A stretch of DNA of 31,214 bases from a virus. The notes beneath the pieces were generated by a model. It worked only from the letters and a program-made list of their open reading frames with translations. It did no database searches and was not told the DNA's origin. The position numbers were made by a program, and so were the translations under genes. Shown here piece after piece: positions 5,276 through 19,576 of the stretch (within the stretch, counting starts at the first letter, position 1; every line of letters begins with the position of its first letter). The stretch covers positions 1-31,214 of IMG/VR virus record IMGVR_UViG_3300013110_000127. One strand, 5' to 3'.

Positions 5276-7489
5276 TTATAACCTCTTTATTGCATTGAGT
5301 CCATCGACCACCATTTGACCTGCATCCCTCTCTTTCATAGATAGTTTCAAATCCGACTTTTTTGCTGCGATTTCGGCAACGATCTCTGTGATACCTTTTA
5401 TCATCGTGGCCAAGGCGCCGTCTGCTTTAGCAGCATAAAACACATCATTCTTATCAAAAACGGGGGTCATATAATTGCGAGCAATGTTTGGAGTTGCCAT
5501 AACTGGTCCCAGTGATTGGGCTGAATTTGAATCCTCAGTTGGGGCAGCTTGGTTTGTCCCTCTCCTCGCAACCGAACTAGCACTGAACTGTAAATCCGTA
5601 CGTGCTTCGTTCTTGCCTGCCTTTACGTTGGATTTGCTTGAACCGCGAACCTTAGTGCCGCCAGGAAGTTTTAAGTTTGCATTGGCAACTGTTCCTTCCA
5701 TCCTTTTTTGAATTTCATTTAAATTATCGGGACCTTTTTTGGTGCTGCCTCCTTTTGTTGGCCACTTCTTTTCACGTTCGTCCTGTATTCTTTTTTCACG
5801 CTCTTCTCCACTGGTACCAGCGAAGCTTGCGCCTGCGCCCATGCCAATAACTGTGCCAATTTGAGCCGCCGAGCCGAGCCCGAAAGTGTTCATAGCCATA
5901 CCCATCATTATGCTCGAAAACAGAGCAATGTTATCAGTGAAAAAACTTATCATGCCCACGACGACATTTGTTAACTCCATCAAACCCTTCTCCCCGCCAA
6001 TGGCATTGACGAGCATTCTAATCGCCTGCTCCATTGCGGCGTCTATCTTTGTAGCGACTGACAACTGGTCTGCGATCTCTGATTGGGTTCCTTGCATATC
6101 TGTCGCCACTGCATCAAGACCCTCCCTGTCACTCTCTAAAAGATCAGCTTCGGCGTCCATAAACTGCTTCAATTTTGCGACGTCACCGCCGAAACCCAAT
6201 GTTGGTTCTTTTGCAAGTGCTCGCAATTCTCTTGCACTAAGTTCCTTGATCGATCTCCCTTCCTTAGCAAGGGAATCCATGATCACTTTTCTCTTTTCTG
6301 CTGGAGATTCAGCTGCTAGTAAGGCTTGAGCACTGACAAGAGGAGCACCGAAAGCAATATTGATGCTTTGGGCGAACTTTGCGGCGCCTTCAAATGTATC
6401 CATATTTTCATTCATTTGCAACAACTGGTTAACCTCTATTCCCAGTTTCGCTGCCATAAATGCTGTGTCTTTGAATATCCTGCGGCCCAGTTCTGCCTCG
6501 AACCTGGCCAGAATCGGTTGGGCGTTCTTAAAATCTTGTGCCATCTCTTGTGGAGGGCGCCCCAGTGCTCTGGCTACGCCTGCAAGGTTGAATAGAAGAT
6601 CTTTTGCCTGTTCTGGTGTTTGTCCCAGTGCCTTAACTTGAGTTCCAATAATCTGCGCCTGAGTGTCCATAGACACCCCTAGTTTGCTCAATGTACCTAT
6701 ACCAGCTGTCAATGCAACCAGTTGAGAGTCCTCTCCTGTGGTCAATTCCGAGAACGATAAAAAATTCTCTTTAAGAGAAGATGCAGCTTCGGCAGCAACT
6801 CCTTCGAGATTTGTACCTATTTGACCCATTGCGGCAGCTGCTTCACCAACATTTAACTGCTCTCTAGTGATTTGGGACCTTTGGAAGAGTGCTGCGCGTG
6901 CTTTGTCCATCCGCAACATTGTTTCAAACATTTTAGCGGTAATTGCAACTAGAACGTTTTGCCACTGCATTGTTTCCGCAATACCTTTGGTGAACCCTTC
7001 TAATAGACCTTTGCCTGATAAATTCTCCCAACCTTTTGATAATCCAAAGGTAGCTTGCAACAACCTCTCGGCAGCTGCTTCACCTTTAGCTAATCCTTTA
7101 TCGTAGTCTTCTTGAAGTTTGACTATTTTCTTGATTTCTTTATATCTCTTTCTGGCGGTTTCAAGTTCCTTTTCATCTACCTCATCCTGCGTGACCATAA
7201 ACTCAATCTTTCTTTTTAGATCATATGCCTCTTGGCCCAAGAGTTCTAGTTTCTTCTTTTCAAGATCGATAACGCCTTCTATCTTATCTTTCTGTTCTGA
7301 TAAGAGTCTATCTATGTCTTGGTATCTTTTTGAAAGTTCTTCTACACTTACTTTTCGGACATCAACTAATTGATCGCCCATCACTTCGGTAATTGCCTCA
7401 AGTAGTGTTTGGGCAAGTGCTGGATCTATTCTAGAGTTTGCAGCAGCTGCTTTGAGTTGCTCTATAAGTCTTTTACCCTGATCGCTCAT
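5276..7489 (-). CDS. Second tape-measure-like protein (paralogue of 7486..10113)
   Basis: This 737-aa protein is mostly alpha-helical. Residues ~60-125 are a strong coiled coil rich in Lys, Glu and Arg. A central region shares blocks with the upstream neighbour: NVLVAITAKMFETMLRMDKA against NILVAVFTKMFEQAKAVDEA, then LGVSMD/LGVSVT, and NIAFGAPLVSAQALLAAES against NSLLGGSFVNGVALLAADAS. A hydrophobic stretch (VVVGMISFFTDNIALFSSIM, roughly residues 510-560, running into an Ala/Gly segment) is typical of tape measures, which help DNA enter the cell. The C-terminal third is polar and Lys/Gly-rich, perhaps binding the baseplate. The start overlaps the previous stop by 4 nt (ATGA), so it is probably translated in fixed ratio with the first copy. 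T4 gp29 is 590 aa. A helical baseplate chaperone is a less likely alternative. Confidence 0.6.
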   Translation of the reverse strand: MSDQGKRLIEQLKAAAANSRIDPALAQTLLEAITEVMGDQLVDVRKVSVEELSKRYQDIDRLLSEQKDKIEGVIDLEKKKLELLGQEAYDLKRKIEFMVTQDEVDEKELETARKRYKEIKKIVKLQEDYDKGLAKGEAAAERLLQATFGLSKGWENLSGKGLLEGFTKGIAETMQWQNVLVAITAKMFETMLRMDKARAALFQRSQITREQLNVGEAAAAMGQIGTNLEGVAAEAASSLKENFLSFSELTTGEDSQLVALTAGIGTLSKLGVSMDTQAQIIGTQVKALGQTPEQAKDLLFNLAGVARALGRPPQEMAQDFKNAQPILARFEAELGRRIFKDTAFMAAKLGIEVNQLLQMNENMDTFEGAAKFAQSINIAFGAPLVSAQALLAAESPAEKRKVIMDSLAKEGRSIKELSARELRALAKEPTLGFGGDVAKLKQFMDAEADLLESDREGLDAVATDMQGTQSEIADQLSVATKIDAAMEQAIRMLVNAIGGEKGLMELTNVVVGMISFFTDNIALFSSIMMGMAMNTFGLGSAAQIGTVIGMGAGASFAGTSGEEREKRIQDEREKKWPTKGGSTKKGPDNLNEIQKRMEGTVANANLKLPGGTKVRGSSKSNVKAGKNEARTDLQFSASSVARRGTNQAAPTEDSNSAQSLGPVMATPNIARNYMTPVFDKNDVFYAAKADGALATMIKGITEIVAEIAAKKSDLKLSMKERDAGQMVVDGLNAIKRL

Positions 7490-10113
7490 GCACTGCCCCC
7501 ATTAATGGCATAGACCCTACTTCCAACCTCTAATGAGACTGAAGGGTCTATGTCTCTTAGTTTAATTAGACCTTTCCGTAAATTATCTAACTGCTCCAAA
7601 AGCACGCCGTCATGTTTTGAGTTCTCAAACTTTGCCTTCTTCATCGGAACTGGACTCATGGCAGTTAAGGTATCCTCGAACCCCATCAATTGTGATTGTG
7701 TCATCTCTTCAGCAACAAACTCCCCTTTTGCTCTTGCGATATCCTTCGGGGACATGCCAGACTTCTTCATGTGCTGTTCATCCAACTTCAATTTCATACT
7801 TCCGTCTTCAATCCCCATCTTTACAAACATCGGAACAAGGACGTTGTCGGCGAAGGCGTGCCCAATACTAGACGAAGCGAGCAATCGACCAATGTAACTT
7901 CCCAGGAGACCACCTGCCATATAAGCAAGAGGTGTCAAGGCGACACCGAGACCAGGAGCAACATTTGCTAGTTGCACAATCCAACCGCCTGCCATGCCAC
8001 CCAACCATCCGCCGAGAGCACCTGCAACTGCCTCTAGTACCCCTCTGGCTTTACCTTTCACATCCAAAGTATCATCATTCAGAACCATTGCAGACTCACC
8101 TATTGCAAAAAGGGTTTCAACAATTGGGTACTTAGCGAGGGCAGCGAGCATTTTGCTGTTTGCTAATGCTTCACCCAACTTTGATCCATATTTAGCAAGA
8201 AGTCCACCGCCCGATTTCGCTCCCGCTTCGACTGCTTCGCCTGCAACAGTAGCTCCTATACTTGATGCTGCGCCTTTCGCGACATCATCAATACCACCTG
8301 CGGCCGATCCGGCTACCGAAGATGCGGCTTGAGTGGCTGCCTCGACGCACCCTGCTGCGCCTTTTGCTGTACCTGCTGCCCTTGCTGCGGCGAGCTGAGC
8401 CTTAAGTGTACCAATTTGTAACTTCATCCTTGGTATTCGCACGAAGTTATCGAATTTTGATTTCATGTATGCTGCGCTAACTGCCATCCCTGCCAAGGCA
8501 AGTGCTGGTATAGTTATCTTGGCATGCCTGGCCAAGAATCCGACCGTTTTGGCAATAGCTGGCATGTGCTTGTTGATCTGGTTGTTAAGTTTTTGGATCA
8601 GTTCTGCCATTGCAGCATCGATTCGCTTGCTTTGGTCTAGTGTTTTTTCTGTATCCTTCTTAATCTCTTCATCCGTTGCTGCTTCGTCTAGATTAGCTAC
8701 CTTAGCATCAAAATCTGCGAATTGCCCTCTAACTATCTTTTGAAAGTTTTCTGCACTCACCCCTGCAGACCCAAGATAACCCTGCATTGCGCGTTGAACG
8801 CGTTGATGTGGTACCCCGAACTGTGCTTCTGCTCTCTGATATGCTTCTGCAATCAATCTCACCTTGCCAGATGCATCTGCAGCAAGAAGGGCAACCCCAT
8901 TAACAAAAGATCCGCCCAATAATGAATTTAGTTTGGCAGCTGTCTTCAGGGCGTTTTCTGATGTGTCCAAATCTTCAGTTAAAGACATCAAATCTTCGAT
9001 CTTTACATTTGTTGCTCTCGCTGTTGCGGCAAGTCTAGCAAACATTTGCGGTGCACGTTTCCCGAATCGAGCATATGTTGGTAAAGTTTTAGCAAAGGAC
9101 CCAAGAGACTCTTTCTGAGTCATCCCATAGTCTTTGCCCATCTTATAAAGGGCCCTTACTGTATGGTCCATCTCTTCGGCATCCATCCCGATACCCTTTG
9201 ACATGGCTTGGTATGAACTCCCCATTGCCGTAACAGACACTCCAAGGGATTTTAACCTACCAGACATATTGGCCATTCTAACGATCTCTCCAGAGTCTCT
9301 AAAATCCTTAAAAACCTTCATCTCGCTTTGAAGATCCGCTAATATTTCACCAGCAGCTGCTGGAGACCCAGGACCATACACTGATGCCAACTCTTGGCCA
9401 ATATCCATCATCTCTGTTGTGAGTCCCGACAATCCAGTCTTCTGATACAGTTTTGCTCTTGCTTCATCTACTGCCTTAGCTTGTTCAAACATTTTCGTAA
9501 ACACAGCAACCAGGATATTTGATGAGTTGACGGTTTTCTTGAGTCCTTTCCCAAATCCCTTGATCGAACCAATAATGCCGTCTGGGCCTGAAAAGGAATT
9601 ACTAACGCCGAGGACTGACTGGGTCATCTTTACTGCTATGGATTCGCCTTTTGCTAGCGACTTCAACATGCTGTCATTTTCGTCTATTTCTTGCTTTAAC
9701 AGTTTGTACTTTTCTTGTGCTCTTTTGGCAGCTTCTGTGTTCAACTCTCCAGCTATAGCATATTCTTCTATTTTGCTCTTTATTTTAGACATTTGAGATT
9801 GTGCGATCTGCTTCTTTACTTCGGAAGCCTCTTGAGTATCCCACTCCAGATATTTGCCCGCTTTTTCACTATATTCTTTATCTTTCTTGAATTTCTCTAA
9901 GAGATTTCTGAAGTATTCACCTGATGATGTACCTCCAGTGGTGCCTCCAGATTTTCTTGATAGTATCTTTTCGTATTCGGATATTAAATCACTCAATAGA
10001 GCTTGATCAGAATCGGAAATCTCAGGAGAGGTTCCGTCGCCAGGGTTGTACTCACCCCCTTGTTCGAATTTCTTAAATAATTCTTTTAATTTTTGAGGGT
10101 TTATGAATGCCAT
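7486..10113 (-). CDS. Tape-measure-like protein, first copy
   Basis: Encodes 875 aa. Residues ~90-150 are charged and helical. The middle (about 200-420) shares blocks with the 737-aa neighbour (see there). The C-terminal half has long Ala/Gly-rich hydrophobic segments, such as ITIPALALAGMAVSAAYM (near 555) and LGGWLGGMAGGWIVQLANVA continuing into a second hydrophobic run (near 695-750), as expected for a tape measure that fills the tube and is ejected ahead of DNA. Position after tube gp19, gp26-like protein and small ORFs matches the usual order tube, assembly chaperone, tape measure. The AGGGGA SD sits in the stop of the previous gene. Family knowledge: tape measures set tail length and are chaperoned during assembly. 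Which of the two copies is the ruler cannot be told from sequence. Confidence 0.7.
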   Translation of the reverse strand: MAFINPQKLKELFKKFEQGGEYNPGDGTSPEISDSDQALLSDLISEYEKILSRKSGGTTGGTSSGEYFRNLLEKFKKDKEYSEKAGKYLEWDTQEASEVKKQIAQSQMSKIKSKIEEYAIAGELNTEAAKRAQEKYKLLKQEIDENDSMLKSLAKGESIAVKMTQSVLGVSNSFSGPDGIIGSIKGFGKGLKKTVNSSNILVAVFTKMFEQAKAVDEARAKLYQKTGLSGLTTEMMDIGQELASVYGPGSPAAAGEILADLQSEMKVFKDFRDSGEIVRMANMSGRLKSLGVSVTAMGSSYQAMSKGIGMDAEEMDHTVRALYKMGKDYGMTQKESLGSFAKTLPTYARFGKRAPQMFARLAATARATNVKIEDLMSLTEDLDTSENALKTAAKLNSLLGGSFVNGVALLAADASGKVRLIAEAYQRAEAQFGVPHQRVQRAMQGYLGSAGVSAENFQKIVRGQFADFDAKVANLDEAATDEEIKKDTEKTLDQSKRIDAAMAELIQKLNNQINKHMPAIAKTVGFLARHAKITIPALALAGMAVSAAYMKSKFDNFVRIPRMKLQIGTLKAQLAAARAAGTAKGAAGCVEAATQAASSVAGSAAGGIDDVAKGAASSIGATVAGEAVEAGAKSGGGLLAKYGSKLGEALANSKMLAALAKYPIVETLFAIGESAMVLNDDTLDVKGKARGVLEAVAGALGGWLGGMAGGWIVQLANVAPGLGVALTPLAYMAGGLLGSYIGRLLASSSIGHAFADNVLVPMFVKMGIEDGSMKLKLDEQHMKKSGMSPKDIARAKGEFVAEEMTQSQLMGFEDTLTAMSPVPMKKAKFENSKHDGVLLEQLDNLRKGLIKLRDIDPSVSLEVGSRVYAINGGSA

Positions 10114-10124
10114 TTAGAAGTCCC

Positions 10125-10433
10125 CTACTTAAAAGGCCAAACTAAACCCGTATCTCTTTCAAAAGATTTGATTGACCTATCTAACTTGAATTTGTCTTTA
10201 AACGTCTTTGGATTGTTTAAACCATATTGAGACAAAGAAGAGAGGTACCTTTTTTCGCCTGCAAGCGTCCTGACAAAGGAATCCACCTGTGCTGGTGATC
10301 CTTTAACAGATACAGGAAAATATTCACCCGTAAATAGAGCGTCCAAGACCATTCTCAACCTTGCGCCCATAGCGACCAAAAAACTTTCGTCGATCTTTGT
10401 GAAGTCTATTACAATTGGTTCTTTCTTATTCAT
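10125..10433 (-). CDS. Small conserved-looking tail-cluster protein, function unknown
   Basis: Encodes 102 aa from MNKKEPIVIDFTKIDESFL. I chose the ATG at 10433 because GGAG lies 6 nt upstream of it; an ATG four codons earlier (10445) has no SD of its own. The protein has an N-terminal IDFTKIDESFLVAMGARLRM segment, a central PVSVKGSPAQVDSFVRTLAG and a C-terminal YGLNNPKTFKDKFKLDRSIK followed by FERDTGLVWPFK. It looks like a compact alpha/beta domain, with no membrane segment. The same pattern seems familiar from hypothetical proteins of T4-like phages, but I have no function for it. Its place between the gp26-like gene and the tape measures suggests tape-measure chaperoning or hub assembly; that is inference only. 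Confidence 0.7.
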   Translation of the reverse strand: MNKKEPIVIDFTKIDESFLVAMGARLRMVLDALFTGEYFPVSVKGSPAQVDSFVRTLAGEKRYLSSLSQYGLNNPKTFKDKFKLDRSIKSFERDTGLVWPFK

Positions 10434-10485
10434 AAACGTCTCCATTAGTAATTAGTTTGGCAAGTCAAAAGAGGATATTGTTTGT

Positions 10486-10647
10486 TTATTTCTTGATCTT
10501 TTCAGCTTCCTTGTTCCTTTCTTCAAAGTACTTGGAGAGTCTTTCCACAAACCACCTTCTAATGGTTATAGGTAGGTCATAAACATCGAAATAGTTCCAA
10601 TTACCGTGCTGAACTAGATAAAATATCTGTTCGTGCACATGTAACAT
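10486..10647 (-). CDS. Small ORF behind gp26-like gene, possible gp51-like or frameshift extension
   Basis: From the first ATG (10647) this is 53 aa: helical, aromatic and charged (MLHVHEQIFYLVQHGNWNYF, then DLPITIRRWFVERLSKYFEE). The compact '-DV-DLP-x-x-R-R-WF-x-x-L' pattern resembles short hub-assembly or tape-measure-chaperone helices in T4-like phages. The ATG has no Shine-Dalgarno; the frame is open further upstream to a TTG at 10728, deep inside the gp26-like gene, where it has rare-looking CGG/AGG codons and no start signal. The frame is +1 (equally -2) relative to the gp26-like gene, and a run of seven U lies at the junction, so this ORF may be reached by ribosomal frameshifting, adding 59 residues to the gp26-like protein. 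Independent initiation by reinitiation (stop and ATG are 4 nt apart) remains possible. Confidence 0.6.
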   Translation of the reverse strand: MLHVHEQIFYLVQHGNWNYFDVYDLPITIRRWFVERLSKYFEERNKEAEKIKK

Positions 10648-10651
10648 ATAA

Positions 10652-11518
10652 TCAGAGGTCAGGCCAAAAAAACGTCGCCTCCAGGGGTACCTCCGTTTCG
10701 GCTTCGGCACCGCAATACATACACTCAAAATCTTCCTTGAGTCTTACAGTTGGAACAAGGGAAGCATAGTTCTTTCTCAAGAACCTAGAATCTCTCGCTG
10801 GCATTTCACCTATCATCTCATTCAAATCAGCTGGGTTTGCGATTTCGTCAATAGATACAATGATCATCTTTAAGAAGTCCGTCGTATTGGTTTCTGCCAA
10901 CTTGTTCTTCTTCTTTGATGACATTCTACTGGCCATCCTAGATTCATCCCTAGACGTCAACAACCTAACAACAACATTTTGCCCTGACATAGGGAGAGTT
11001 GTCTCGAAGTGCCCTTGATGATTTGTCTTAAAATTCTCTGACTGTTCAAACTTCTCAAAATACTTATGATATTCTGATAGGTCAACTGTGATGTCACAGT
11101 CTGTATTGCACTCTGGGCAGGTTATCTTTACTTCATAATCAGGCCCATACCCTGTTACTCTTGCAGCGACCATAATTGCTGACTTATCACCGATAAGCAG
11201 ATCTGCTACCTGAATGCTTTGATCGACCATAATGTTCTGAATGAACTTATCAATTGCCACTCCCTTTCTTAAAAGAGCGGGAGATGTTAAGATATCTTCA
11301 TCCCTGGCTGTCATGAATCTAATCTCAACTGTCTCTTGACCGTGGAGAGGGTGATTCTGTGGATAAAACAGACCCCTAGACGGCAGTTCGACGAATTCGG
11401 TGTTTGCCGTTCTTCTTACTGCTTGTACTGGGGGTTGTGGACTTTGTAACTCCTCTGGAGCTGTTTGTTTTTTGGCAGGAGGCGCTTTGCGCGCCATCCT
11501 GTTCGAATTTCTACTCAT
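10652..11518 (-). CDS. 26: gp26-like baseplate hub / tail assembly protein
   Basis: This 288-aa protein belongs by pattern to the T4 gp26 family: residues 42-60 (FVELPSRGLFYPQNHPLHG), then VEIRFMTARDEDILTSPALL, then LLIGDKSAIMVAARVTGYG. A likely zinc site is formed by C134, C137 (CPEC) and C141, with C266 and C269 (CMYC) near the C terminus. T4 gp26 is 208 aa; the extra length is an Ala/Pro-rich basic N-terminal tail (1-35) and the C-terminal Cys pair. The family is annotated as a baseplate hub subunit or assembly factor, and it sits where other long-tailed phages keep the tail assembly chaperone. The last codons before the stop contain TTT TTT T, discussed separately as a frameshift site. 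SD GTGAGG precedes the ATG. Confidence 0.75.
   Translation of the reverse strand: MSRNSNRMARKAPPAKKQTAPEELQSPQPPVQAVRRTANTEFVELPSRGLFYPQNHPLHGQETVEIRFMTARDEDILTSPALLRKGVAIDKFIQNIMVDQSIQVADLLIGDKSAIMVAARVTGYGPDYEVKITCPECNTDCDITVDLSEYHKYFEKFEQSENFKTNHQGHFETTLPMSGQNVVVRLLTSRDESRMASRMSSKKKNKLAETNTTDFLKMIIVSIDEIANPADLNEMIGEMPARDSRFLRKNYASLVPTVRLKEDFECMYCGAEAETEVPLEATFFWPDL
10666..10682 (-). other. Candidate programmed frameshift site (U7 run with upstream SD-like GGAGG)
   Basis: On the coding strand the gp26-like gene reads ACG TTT TTT TGG four codons before its stop. The seven T run (10666-10672) lets tRNA-Phe re-pair perfectly after a +1 or a -2 slip, and either slip enters the frame of the small downstream ORF (GGC CTG ACC onward from 10665). 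A GGAGG (10678-10682) lies 5 nt before the run, and such internal SD-like sites are known to stimulate frameshifting in other genes. The slip would give a protein of about 343-344 aa that keeps all five cysteines. No frameshifting is shown directly; a homopolymer sequencing error would look similar. Confidence 0.45.
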
Positions 11519-11570: not shown

Positions 11571-12197
11571 TTAAACTCCTGGTGCTAATCCAGTAAGTCC
11601 TGCCTGTGCGCCTTGCCCAGACTGTTGAACCTGACGAAGTGCGCCCTTATCTGAAACGCCCTTAGTATCAAGTCCTGCCCAATCAAATCTCATCGTAAGT
11701 TCAACGTTTACAAGATCGTCAGACTCATAATCAAGATCACCAAAGTTAACACTCTTAATCCAAGGATTATATAGAGACCAGGTCTCGATCGGAGATCCAT
11801 TCTCATCAATCGTGTGAATATACACTCTACCACCCACTGCGCTTGTTGCCTGCTTCTTAGAGAAGGTAACAATATTGCTCGCCTTACCTCTACCCAGAGG
11901 GTCATTCAAGAAGTTGTGCGGTGCAACGTAACCAGACAATTCAATCAAGTCCAACATGGTCTTTGATGCATCTGGATCAACTGGATCAACAAGAGTCATA
12001 CTGATCTCTTCCCACTCCAATCTCCCAGGGTAATAAAACTTATAGTTAATAAAACTATGCTCAGACTCCGATACCGAAAAATTGGGTTTACCCGTTGTCT
12101 TCACGATCCACTGCGGGATACCATTAAACGATAACAAAAATCTGTATTTTCTCTTTGGCTCAATTGAAGCATCTGACCAAAATTTCTGACTTGCCAT
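11571..12197 (-). CDS. 19: Tail tube protein (gp19-like)
   Basis: This 208-aa protein lies directly after the sheath gene, as in T4. The N-terminal part has the tube-protein pattern KYRFLLSFNGIPQWIVKTTG, then KPNFSVSESEHSFINYKFYY and PGRLEWEEISMTLVDPVDPD, and the core ends with ELTMRFDWAGLD: a beta-barrel that makes stacked hexameric rings. T4 gp19 is 163 aa; the added length is mainly a C-terminal Gly/Gln/Ala tail of about 35 residues (GVSDKGALRQVQQSGQGAQA and on), probably flexible. The SD is a perfect AGGAGG. The 43-nt leader holds a 17-nt palindrome. This is one of the safest calls in the window. Confidence 0.9.
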   Translation of the reverse strand: MASQKFWSDASIEPKRKYRFLLSFNGIPQWIVKTTGKPNFSVSESEHSFINYKFYYPGRLEWEEISMTLVDPVDPDASKTMLDLIELSGYVAPHNFLNDPLGRGKASNIVTFSKKQATSAVGGRVYIHTIDENGSPIETWSLYNPWIKSVNFGDLDYESDDLVNVELTMRFDWAGLDTKGVSDKGALRQVQQSGQGAQAGLTGLAPGV

Positions 12198-15471: not shown

Positions 15472-15489
15472 GGGGGGCGTGAGCCCCCC
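15472..15489 (-). terminator. GC hairpin downstream of large fibre gene
   Basis: GGGGGGC and GCCCCCC pair over 7 bp around a 4-nt loop, 16 nt after the fibre gene stop. On the coding strand the downstream side is pyrimidine-rich (CACTTCCTTTTCTTG), a modest U-tract. It fits an intrinsic terminator or an mRNA 3'-end stabiliser separating fibre and sheath transcripts. Confidence 0.65.
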
Positions 15490-19556: not shown

Positions 19557-19576
19557 GAGGGGGGGTTACCCCCCTC
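19557..19576 (-). terminator. GC hairpin downstream of the 758-aa fibre gene
   Basis: GAGGGGGG pairs with CCCCCCTC over 8 bp around GTTA, 12 nt after the fibre gene stop. On the coding strand it is followed by TTGTTTCGTTTATG, a U-rich tail. Placement and form mirror the hairpin after the second fibre gene, as if the terminator was duplicated with the gene. Confidence 0.7.

Follow-up and report, generated by a model that had tools for sequence, protein, structure and literature searches.

Near the end of a gp26-like phage gene, a run of seven U's is followed by a small ORF in another frame, raising the question of whether the two are expressed as separate genes or joined by ribosomal frameshifting. 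The whole locus lies on the minus strand of the virus record IMGVR_UViG_3300013110_000127, all 31,214 nt of which make up the window analyzed here. An earlier inspection of this DNA, made from the letters alone and referred to below as the sequence-only reading, had suggested that a slip on the U-run may join the small ORF to the gp26-like protein and that the pair resembles G and GT of phage lambda. That suggestion is borne out here by a conserved site and frame relation, purifying selection in the shifted frame, the lack of a conserved start, a correspondence to T4 gp26 and gp51, and gene order. We conclude that the locus probably encodes a programmed +1 ribosomal frameshift in a tail assembly chaperone gene of the T4 gp26 type, giving a short form of 288 aa and a long form of 343 aa; judged from comparative sequence evidence, we put the probability of this reading at about 0.88.

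A small ORF without a start of its own lies behind a putative slip site

The gp26-like gene (10652..11518, minus strand; 288 aa) encodes a proposed tail assembly chaperone that belongs to the Pfam family T4_baseplate (PF12322; 45.4 bits against a cut-off of 24.5, E = 1e-11) and matches the PHROGs group phrog_150, baseplate hub (1.1e-13). As the sequence-only reading had stated, it ends in ACG TTT TTT TGG CCT GAC CTC TGA, with the T7 run (U7 in the mRNA) at 10666..10672 and the zero-frame stop TGA at 10652..10654. Also in agreement with that reading, the small ORF is in the +1 frame relative to the gp26-like gene and open backwards across T7 (its stop ends at 10486), and its first in-frame ATG past the slip (10645..10647) has no Shine-Dalgarno (SD) sequence upstream. 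In our proposed reading the P-site codon would be UUU (10669..10667), base 10666 would be skipped, and the next codon in the +1 frame would be GGC (10665..10663), leaving four sense codons between the P-site codon and the stop. The C-terminal ORF (C-ORF) entered in this way spans 59 codons plus a stop (10486..10665), and virtual translation of complement(join(10486..10665,10667..11518)) gives a predicted fusion of 343 aa, the proposed long form. Together these parts make up a G/GT-type locus: a short ORF, a start-less ORF in another frame, and a slip site in the overlap.

The junction is conserved across the gp26 family

Five other IMG/VR contigs (L002-L006) that carry the same gp26 protein have an identical junction. 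Two diverged relatives, L008 and L009 (81% and 78% gp26 identity, respectively), keep both T7 and the frame relation, and their small-ORF proteins are nearly unchanged despite many silent changes. U7 is therefore not an assembly artefact. Homopolymers are error-prone in general, and an assembly error or a broken gene whose true run has 6 or 8 T's would mimic a frameshift site, but the same run stands in those five contigs and, between differing flanks, in dozens of diverged relatives, leaving this explanation next to no probability.

A profile search with N-terminal motifs, applied with no selection on the junction, returned at least 597 confirmed loci, of which the best 80 were kept (L022-L101). 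In these best 80 of at least 597, the gene ends in [TC]TT TGG without exception (75 TTT TTT TGG, 3 TTT CTT TGG, and 2 TTC TTT TGG), and the +1 frame is open for at least 24 codons beyond the stop in 79; in the 80th, the contig ends. Scans of other branches contributed all 35 SP-15-type loci, the best 80 of 362 jumbo-phage loci, and the best 80 of at least 598 cyanophage loci, to which annotated phages were added. We set aside before counting the window's own copy (L001), two loci missing the 3' end (L007 and L010), and T4 (L102), which is treated apart. Of the 301 rows counted (the window plus 300 loci, with L022 and L006 being the same place), four have no stop within the contig, and the other 297 reduce to 261 distinct junctions, 260 of them testable; L097 is too short to test, although it does carry the motif of the window's group.

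A slip motif together with a shifted frame that stays open for 24 codons or more was present at 252/260 testable gp26 junctions. The combination was present at 9/796 control ends, taken from other ORFs (mechanical ones and genes alike) that reach 150 codons in these loci; as the motifs were picked after the first loci had been seen and the rows are related, these counts are not probabilities. The open shifted frame alone, a weaker kind of evidence, was found at 256/260 junctions and 261/796 control ends. The 252 junctions divide into 104 of +1 type and 148 of -1 type. We refer to the +1 junctions followed by TGG, the window's own motif-defined group, as group A (84 distinct junctions), and to those followed by C, the SP-15-type sister group, as group B (20 junctions). 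Three or four sense codons separate the P-site codon from the stop in 83/84 group A junctions.

The remaining 8/260 junctions fit neither strict motif: L012 (TTT CTA), L015 (TTT TTT AGT), four with TTY AAT CCC AGT, and L145 and L146, which carry A_AAT_TTT, a heptamer of the -1 type. In all eight, the shifted frame is open across the stop. In L129, L132, L134, and L138, the Phe-Phe (FF) run has given way to TTY AAT CCC AGT with an open +1 frame, and to judge by these letters the slip has perhaps moved to a CCC_A +1 site. We looked at 15 annotated phage records that contain a locus of this kind, and none has a joined gp26 CDS.

The shifted frame is conserved as protein and rarely has a start signal

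Immediately after the slip, the +1 frame encodes Gly-Leu in 84/84 group A junctions, and the zero-frame codon that follows TGG is CCT, TCT, ACT, or CTT. For the part of the C-ORF past the zero-frame stop, a crude dN/dS is about 0.04 across 19 group A pairs, which are close and not independent; the differences in these pairs fall 148/70/415 on codon positions 1/2/3. By these comparative measures, the shifted-frame ORF is under purifying protein selection.

A rival reading makes the small ORF a separate gene, translated from an ATG of its own or by ribosomes that re-initiate once they have passed the gp26 stop. An in-frame ATG does occur soon after the stop in the window, and an ATG falls within codons 1-20 of the shifted ORF in 39/84 group A, 3/20 group B, and 104/148 -1 junctions, so that separate starts may be used in individual phages; in Vibrio phage K575 and PBECO4 there is a TAATG overlap and the annotation shows two genes. 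However, 30/84 group A and 11/20 group B junctions have no ATG, GTG, or TTG at all within those 20 codons, and a start with an SD-like 4-mer occurs there in just 0/84 group A, 1/20 group B, and 15/148 -1 junctions. Moreover, the +1 frame is conserved straight from the slip, and T4 gp51 runs across the junction as a single chain (see below). We thus consider a separate gene very unlikely and favor a fusion.

The 58-aa peptide of the small ORF had no significant match in Pfam or PHROGs. A tblastn search of annotated phages with this peptide gave one clear match, in Microcystis phage Mel-JY01 (3e-6), and, at E 0.3-0.4, 18 Vibrio records; baseplate hub assembly catalyst is the name given in 17 of these.

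Direction of the shift and the second Phe codon

The gp26 family splits into a +1 clade, which holds the window, Flavobacterium and Microcystis phages, and SP-15, and a -1 clade, which holds cyanophages, Aeh1, and jumbo phages and whose site is mostly U_UUU_UUC. Group A junctions read TTT TTT TGG in 78 cases, TTT CTT TGG in 4, and TTC TTT TGG in 2 (n = 84). In group B, the second Phe codon is TTT in 20/20, the first is TTC in 7/20, and the next codon is CGT in 14/20. The second Phe codon of the -1 group is instead TTC in 145/148 and TTT in 3/148. Assigning direction from the open frames alone, without any motif, again gives TTT in 99/99 +1 junctions and TTC in 145/148 -1 junctions, with 14/261 junctions ambiguous or lacking FF in this count. 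Elsewhere in these genes, 72-75% of Phe codons are TTT.

What both +1 groups share is thus a YUU with U or C after it, on which a P-site tRNA can re-pair one base on; all 80 of the loci L022-L101 (the best 80 of at least 597) have it. The exceptions within the +1 clade are L012, L015, and the four CCC AGT junctions.

The sequence-only reading had left open whether the shift is +1 or -2. A -2 shift at the same site would reach the same frame and add one extra Phe to the product; U7 in the window permits full re-pairing after such a slip, and gpGT of phage Mu is described as using -2 (PMC3498833). But nine junctions with the +1 frame relation read TTC TTT (2/84 in group A and 7/20 in group B) and another 4/84 in group A read TTT CTT, so that on slipping back the tRNA would meet UCU, or tRNA-Leu would meet UUC. 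Because these variants break -2 re-pairing, +1 is favored, and we regard -2 as unlikely.

Run length bears on a further possibility, slippage of RNA polymerase on T7, which would generate mRNAs with 6 or 8 U's and an in-frame fusion without any ribosomal shift. Although the full T7 run in 78/84 group A junctions would suit such slippage, the run is just T3-T4 in 6/84 and, in the sister group, T3 in 7/20 without any loss of the frame relation, and we hold this explanation to be highly improbable. In the comparison of relatives, which the sequence-only reading had proposed as a check, the site and the frame relation are both conserved.

We built a tree from 90 gp26 proteins after cutting out the slip region. 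In it, +1 rows form a group apart from -1 rows (SH-aLRT 96) and the direction changes at least twice, although this is a quick tree in which 39/87 inner branches are open. L012 falls in the +1 clade without the motif, T4 gp26 falls inside the -1 clade, and L014, a -1 locus, falls inside the +1 clade. L014 (LR756511, a 595 kb phage) has, from 3001, a -1 type GGT TTT TTC, past which the zero frame runs on for 21 codons, and a TAATG overlap; this locus may have reversed its direction or changed over to re-initiation.

On balance, we lean toward a scenario in which evolution sets the direction at one Phe-Phe codon pair, a second codon UUU going with +1 and UUC with -1, in which there was one deep split between +1 and -1 clades, in which T4 later exchanged the shift for two genes, and in which the +1 clade includes a type of site, [UC]UU_UGG, that we have not found described in open-licence papers.

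Candidate stimulators of the shift

The sequence-only reading had pointed to GGAGG 5 nt upstream of the U-run. This SD-like sequence is present as described (10678..10682, minus strand), but it is not a family feature: SD-like 4-mers lie upstream of the site in 7/84 group A and 5/20 group B junctions, against 19% of control positions in each case, so that the motif is in fact depleted in group A. We therefore rejected GGAGG as a stimulator, and it probably has no part in the mechanism.

An SD-like upstream stimulator acts in dnaX. In the -1 group, SD-like 4-mers occur in 94/148 junctions against 15% of control positions, mostly 11-13 nt upstream (for example, in L103 and L225-L304); they may be a stimulator or a by-product of a conserved Glu-Gly-Leu. 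RNA folding gave no convincing signal in 35 representatives, with mean z of -0.89 upstream (-60..0) and -0.21 downstream (+9..+69). Between SD-like motifs and RNA folding, then, we found no conserved stimulator. The Trp codon UGG is not obviously slow.

T4 gp26 and gp51 look like the short and long forms

T4 itself has the gp26 family in another arrangement. We built a profile of virtual -1 fusions from 9 T4-like loci and 25 of 77 cyanophage loci. T4 gp26 aligns to this profile only up to FF (positions 20-244), whereas the alignment of T4 gp51, a single chain, crosses the junction and enters the C-terminal domain (profile 25-289). The two T4 proteins resemble each other directly (blastp, 2e-6), and genes 26 and 51 lie on opposite strands. 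T4 gp26 ends in GAG TTC TTT GAG TTA CTA TAA, with no C-ORF behind it. On this evidence, T4 gp26 and gp51 look like the short and the long form, with two genes apparently having replaced the shift.

The connection of the window's C-ORF to gp51 is indirect. A profile of group A C-ORFs matches those of group B at 97.7%, T4-like C-ORFs at 86.6%, jumbo-phage C-ORFs at 37.7%, and cyanophage C-ORFs at 23.6%; matched directly to the T4 gp51 tail it reaches 0.03%, with four reversed controls reaching up to 0.43%. T4-like C-ORFs, in turn, match cyanophage C-ORFs at 99.2% and the gp51 tail at 79.9%. Since the direct match is nil and those to cyanophage and jumbo-phage C-ORFs are weak, the link from the window to gp51 runs via T4-like intermediates. 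By way of these intermediates, the window's +1-frame ORF may encode a gp51-type C-terminal domain.

The link between gp26/gp51 and G/GT logic, drawn by the sequence-only reading, was already in print. Vladimirov, Gautam, and Davidson 2022 (Virology 566:9), as cited in passages of PMC10885494 and PMC12846349, identified T4 gp26 and gp51 as tail assembly chaperones, and our two-gene reading of T4 agrees with the account given by those citing papers. For Vandenendeviridae and Andersonviridae, and on the strength of a citation for T4-like phages as well, PMC12846349 also reports a poly-T signal of the -1 type. In searches of open-licence PMC papers, we found neither a gp26-type gene with a +1 shift nor a YUU_UGG site. 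The new part appears to be the +1 clade, the gp26/gp51-chaperone link having been published.

Gene order and fold in the chaperone assignment

Tail assembly chaperones of the G/GT kind are encoded ahead of the tape measure, and the sequence-only reading had put the small ORF before the tape measures. Upstream of the gp26-like gene, the window has a tail tube protein gene (11571..12197, minus strand; phrog_4542, 8.9e-26). Downstream are two tape-measure candidates, inferred from size and position, of 875 aa (7486..10113) and 737 aa (5276..7489), both on the minus strand; they are paralogues (blastp, 27.9% over 420 columns, 4e-31), and neither has a family match in Pfam or PHROGs. They are near the small ORF but not immediately behind it: an ORF of 106 aa (10125..10445, minus strand), with no significant family match in Pfam or PHROGs, intervenes. 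The start region of this ORF is kept in L008 and L009. Two tandem tape-measure-like proteins (5276-7489 and 7486-10113) look unusual. Elsewhere in the window, at 15472-15489 and 19559-19574, G6-7 runs face C6 runs between large ORFs and are candidate terminator-like hairpins.

Annotated tape measures lie downstream of the locus in the relatives immuto, LIS04, and SP-15, so that the tube upstream in the window and the tape measure downstream in relatives together place the locus between the two. Among loci with enough sequence, an ORF of at least 350 codons follows within 700 nt in 58/62 and 18/18 +1 loci and in just 63/121 -1 loci. In PA5oct and PBECO4, gp26 adjoins the portal region, and in these phages the pair may have become separated from the tape measure.

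Family searches place the gene with gp26: 33/33 members of A7 match PF12322 at E 0.01 or better, and no match to tail chaperone families was obtained in Pfam or PHROGs. The AlphaFold model of the short form (pLDDT 90.7) matches gp26-type viral proteins. Against the PDB, its top-ranking structure is the HK97 tail assembly chaperone 2ob9_B (Z 5.4, 89 aligned, rmsd 7.1; next row Z 2.8). A model from the -1 clade (pLDDT 87.5) finds the same structure with its N-terminal part (Z 6.0, 86 aligned, rmsd 4.6), at rank 10 and tied with many rows; the two models come from different clades, and both matches are under Z 8, below the level trusted alone. Sequence searches of the PDB gave no credible match, and Foldseek in the PDB gave no match at E 0.001 or better.

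Proposed mechanism and its implications

Most ribosomes would halt at UGA and release the 288-aa short form. In the minority, whose P site holds tRNA-Phe paired with UUU while UGG occupies the A site, the tRNA would slip one base forward (UUU_UGG to U_UUU_GGC), and at the CUU variants a P-site tRNA-Leu would do the same. These ribosomes would go on to make the 343-aa long form with its gp51-type C-terminal domain, a minor product beside the short form, like gpGT beside gpG. If the pair works as G/GT does in lambda, the tape measure protein would be coated by the short form, and tail tube subunits would be recruited by the additional domain of the long form. That the shift occurs, its efficiency, its exact P-site mechanism, and the chaperone function are points we infer from the anatomy and conservation of the locus.

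If correct, this reading adds nearly every gp26 family member sampled to the frameshifting tail chaperones, among them those of phages whose records leave the downstream exon without annotation or list it as a gene of its own, and annotators should join the gp26 ORF to the shifted C-ORF. Opposite directions at the same two codons also make the family a compact test bed for what determines +1 versus -1 shifting, worth a test at the bench.

Comparison with known systems

The +1 shift site of bacterial prfB, which encodes release factor 2, is CUU_UGA. It is a YUU_U slip, and the TTT CTT TGG variants of the window's group resemble it. Influenza A PA-X is another relevant case: its +1 site, UCC_UUU_CGU, is described as a P-site slip on UUU_C (PMC3498833), and the sister group has UUU_CGU in 14/20 junctions. 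PA-X belongs to an unrelated gene and host, however, and the A-site codon in the window's clade is UGG rather than CGU.

Closer in gene position are the HF1-like haloviruses, for which a +1 shift at TTT-CGC has been proposed in chaperone genes between tube and tape measure (PMC7230728). They share the +1 direction, UUU followed by C, and the gene position, and thus resemble the SP-15-type sister group; these viruses are archaeal and the window's site is UUU_UGG, and the comparison is one of site and position, gp26 homology aside. A +1 shift is also called very likely in HSTV-2 in the review PMC5009743.

That review describes G/GT frameshifting as widespread, gives a lambda G:GT ratio of 30:1, and sets out the roles of G and T (PMC5009743). 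What lambda G/GT has in common with the locus studied here is a short protein and a low-frequency frameshift extension of it, encoded ahead of the tape measure (PMC5009743). The lambda shift is -1, whereas that proposed for the window's clade is +1, and the locus studied here matches none of the chaperone families in Pfam or PHROGs.

T4 is called the exception in the same review (PMC5009743). It shares with the window's clade the gp26 family and a short and a long form, but has two genes where the clade would have a +1 shift. In its account of phage 0305phi8-36, PMC2147016 describes a two-gene tail chaperonin in which no frameshift was found. Leaving gp26 homology aside, that phage shows that two related genes can replace a frameshift pair (PMC2147016), as we propose for T4.
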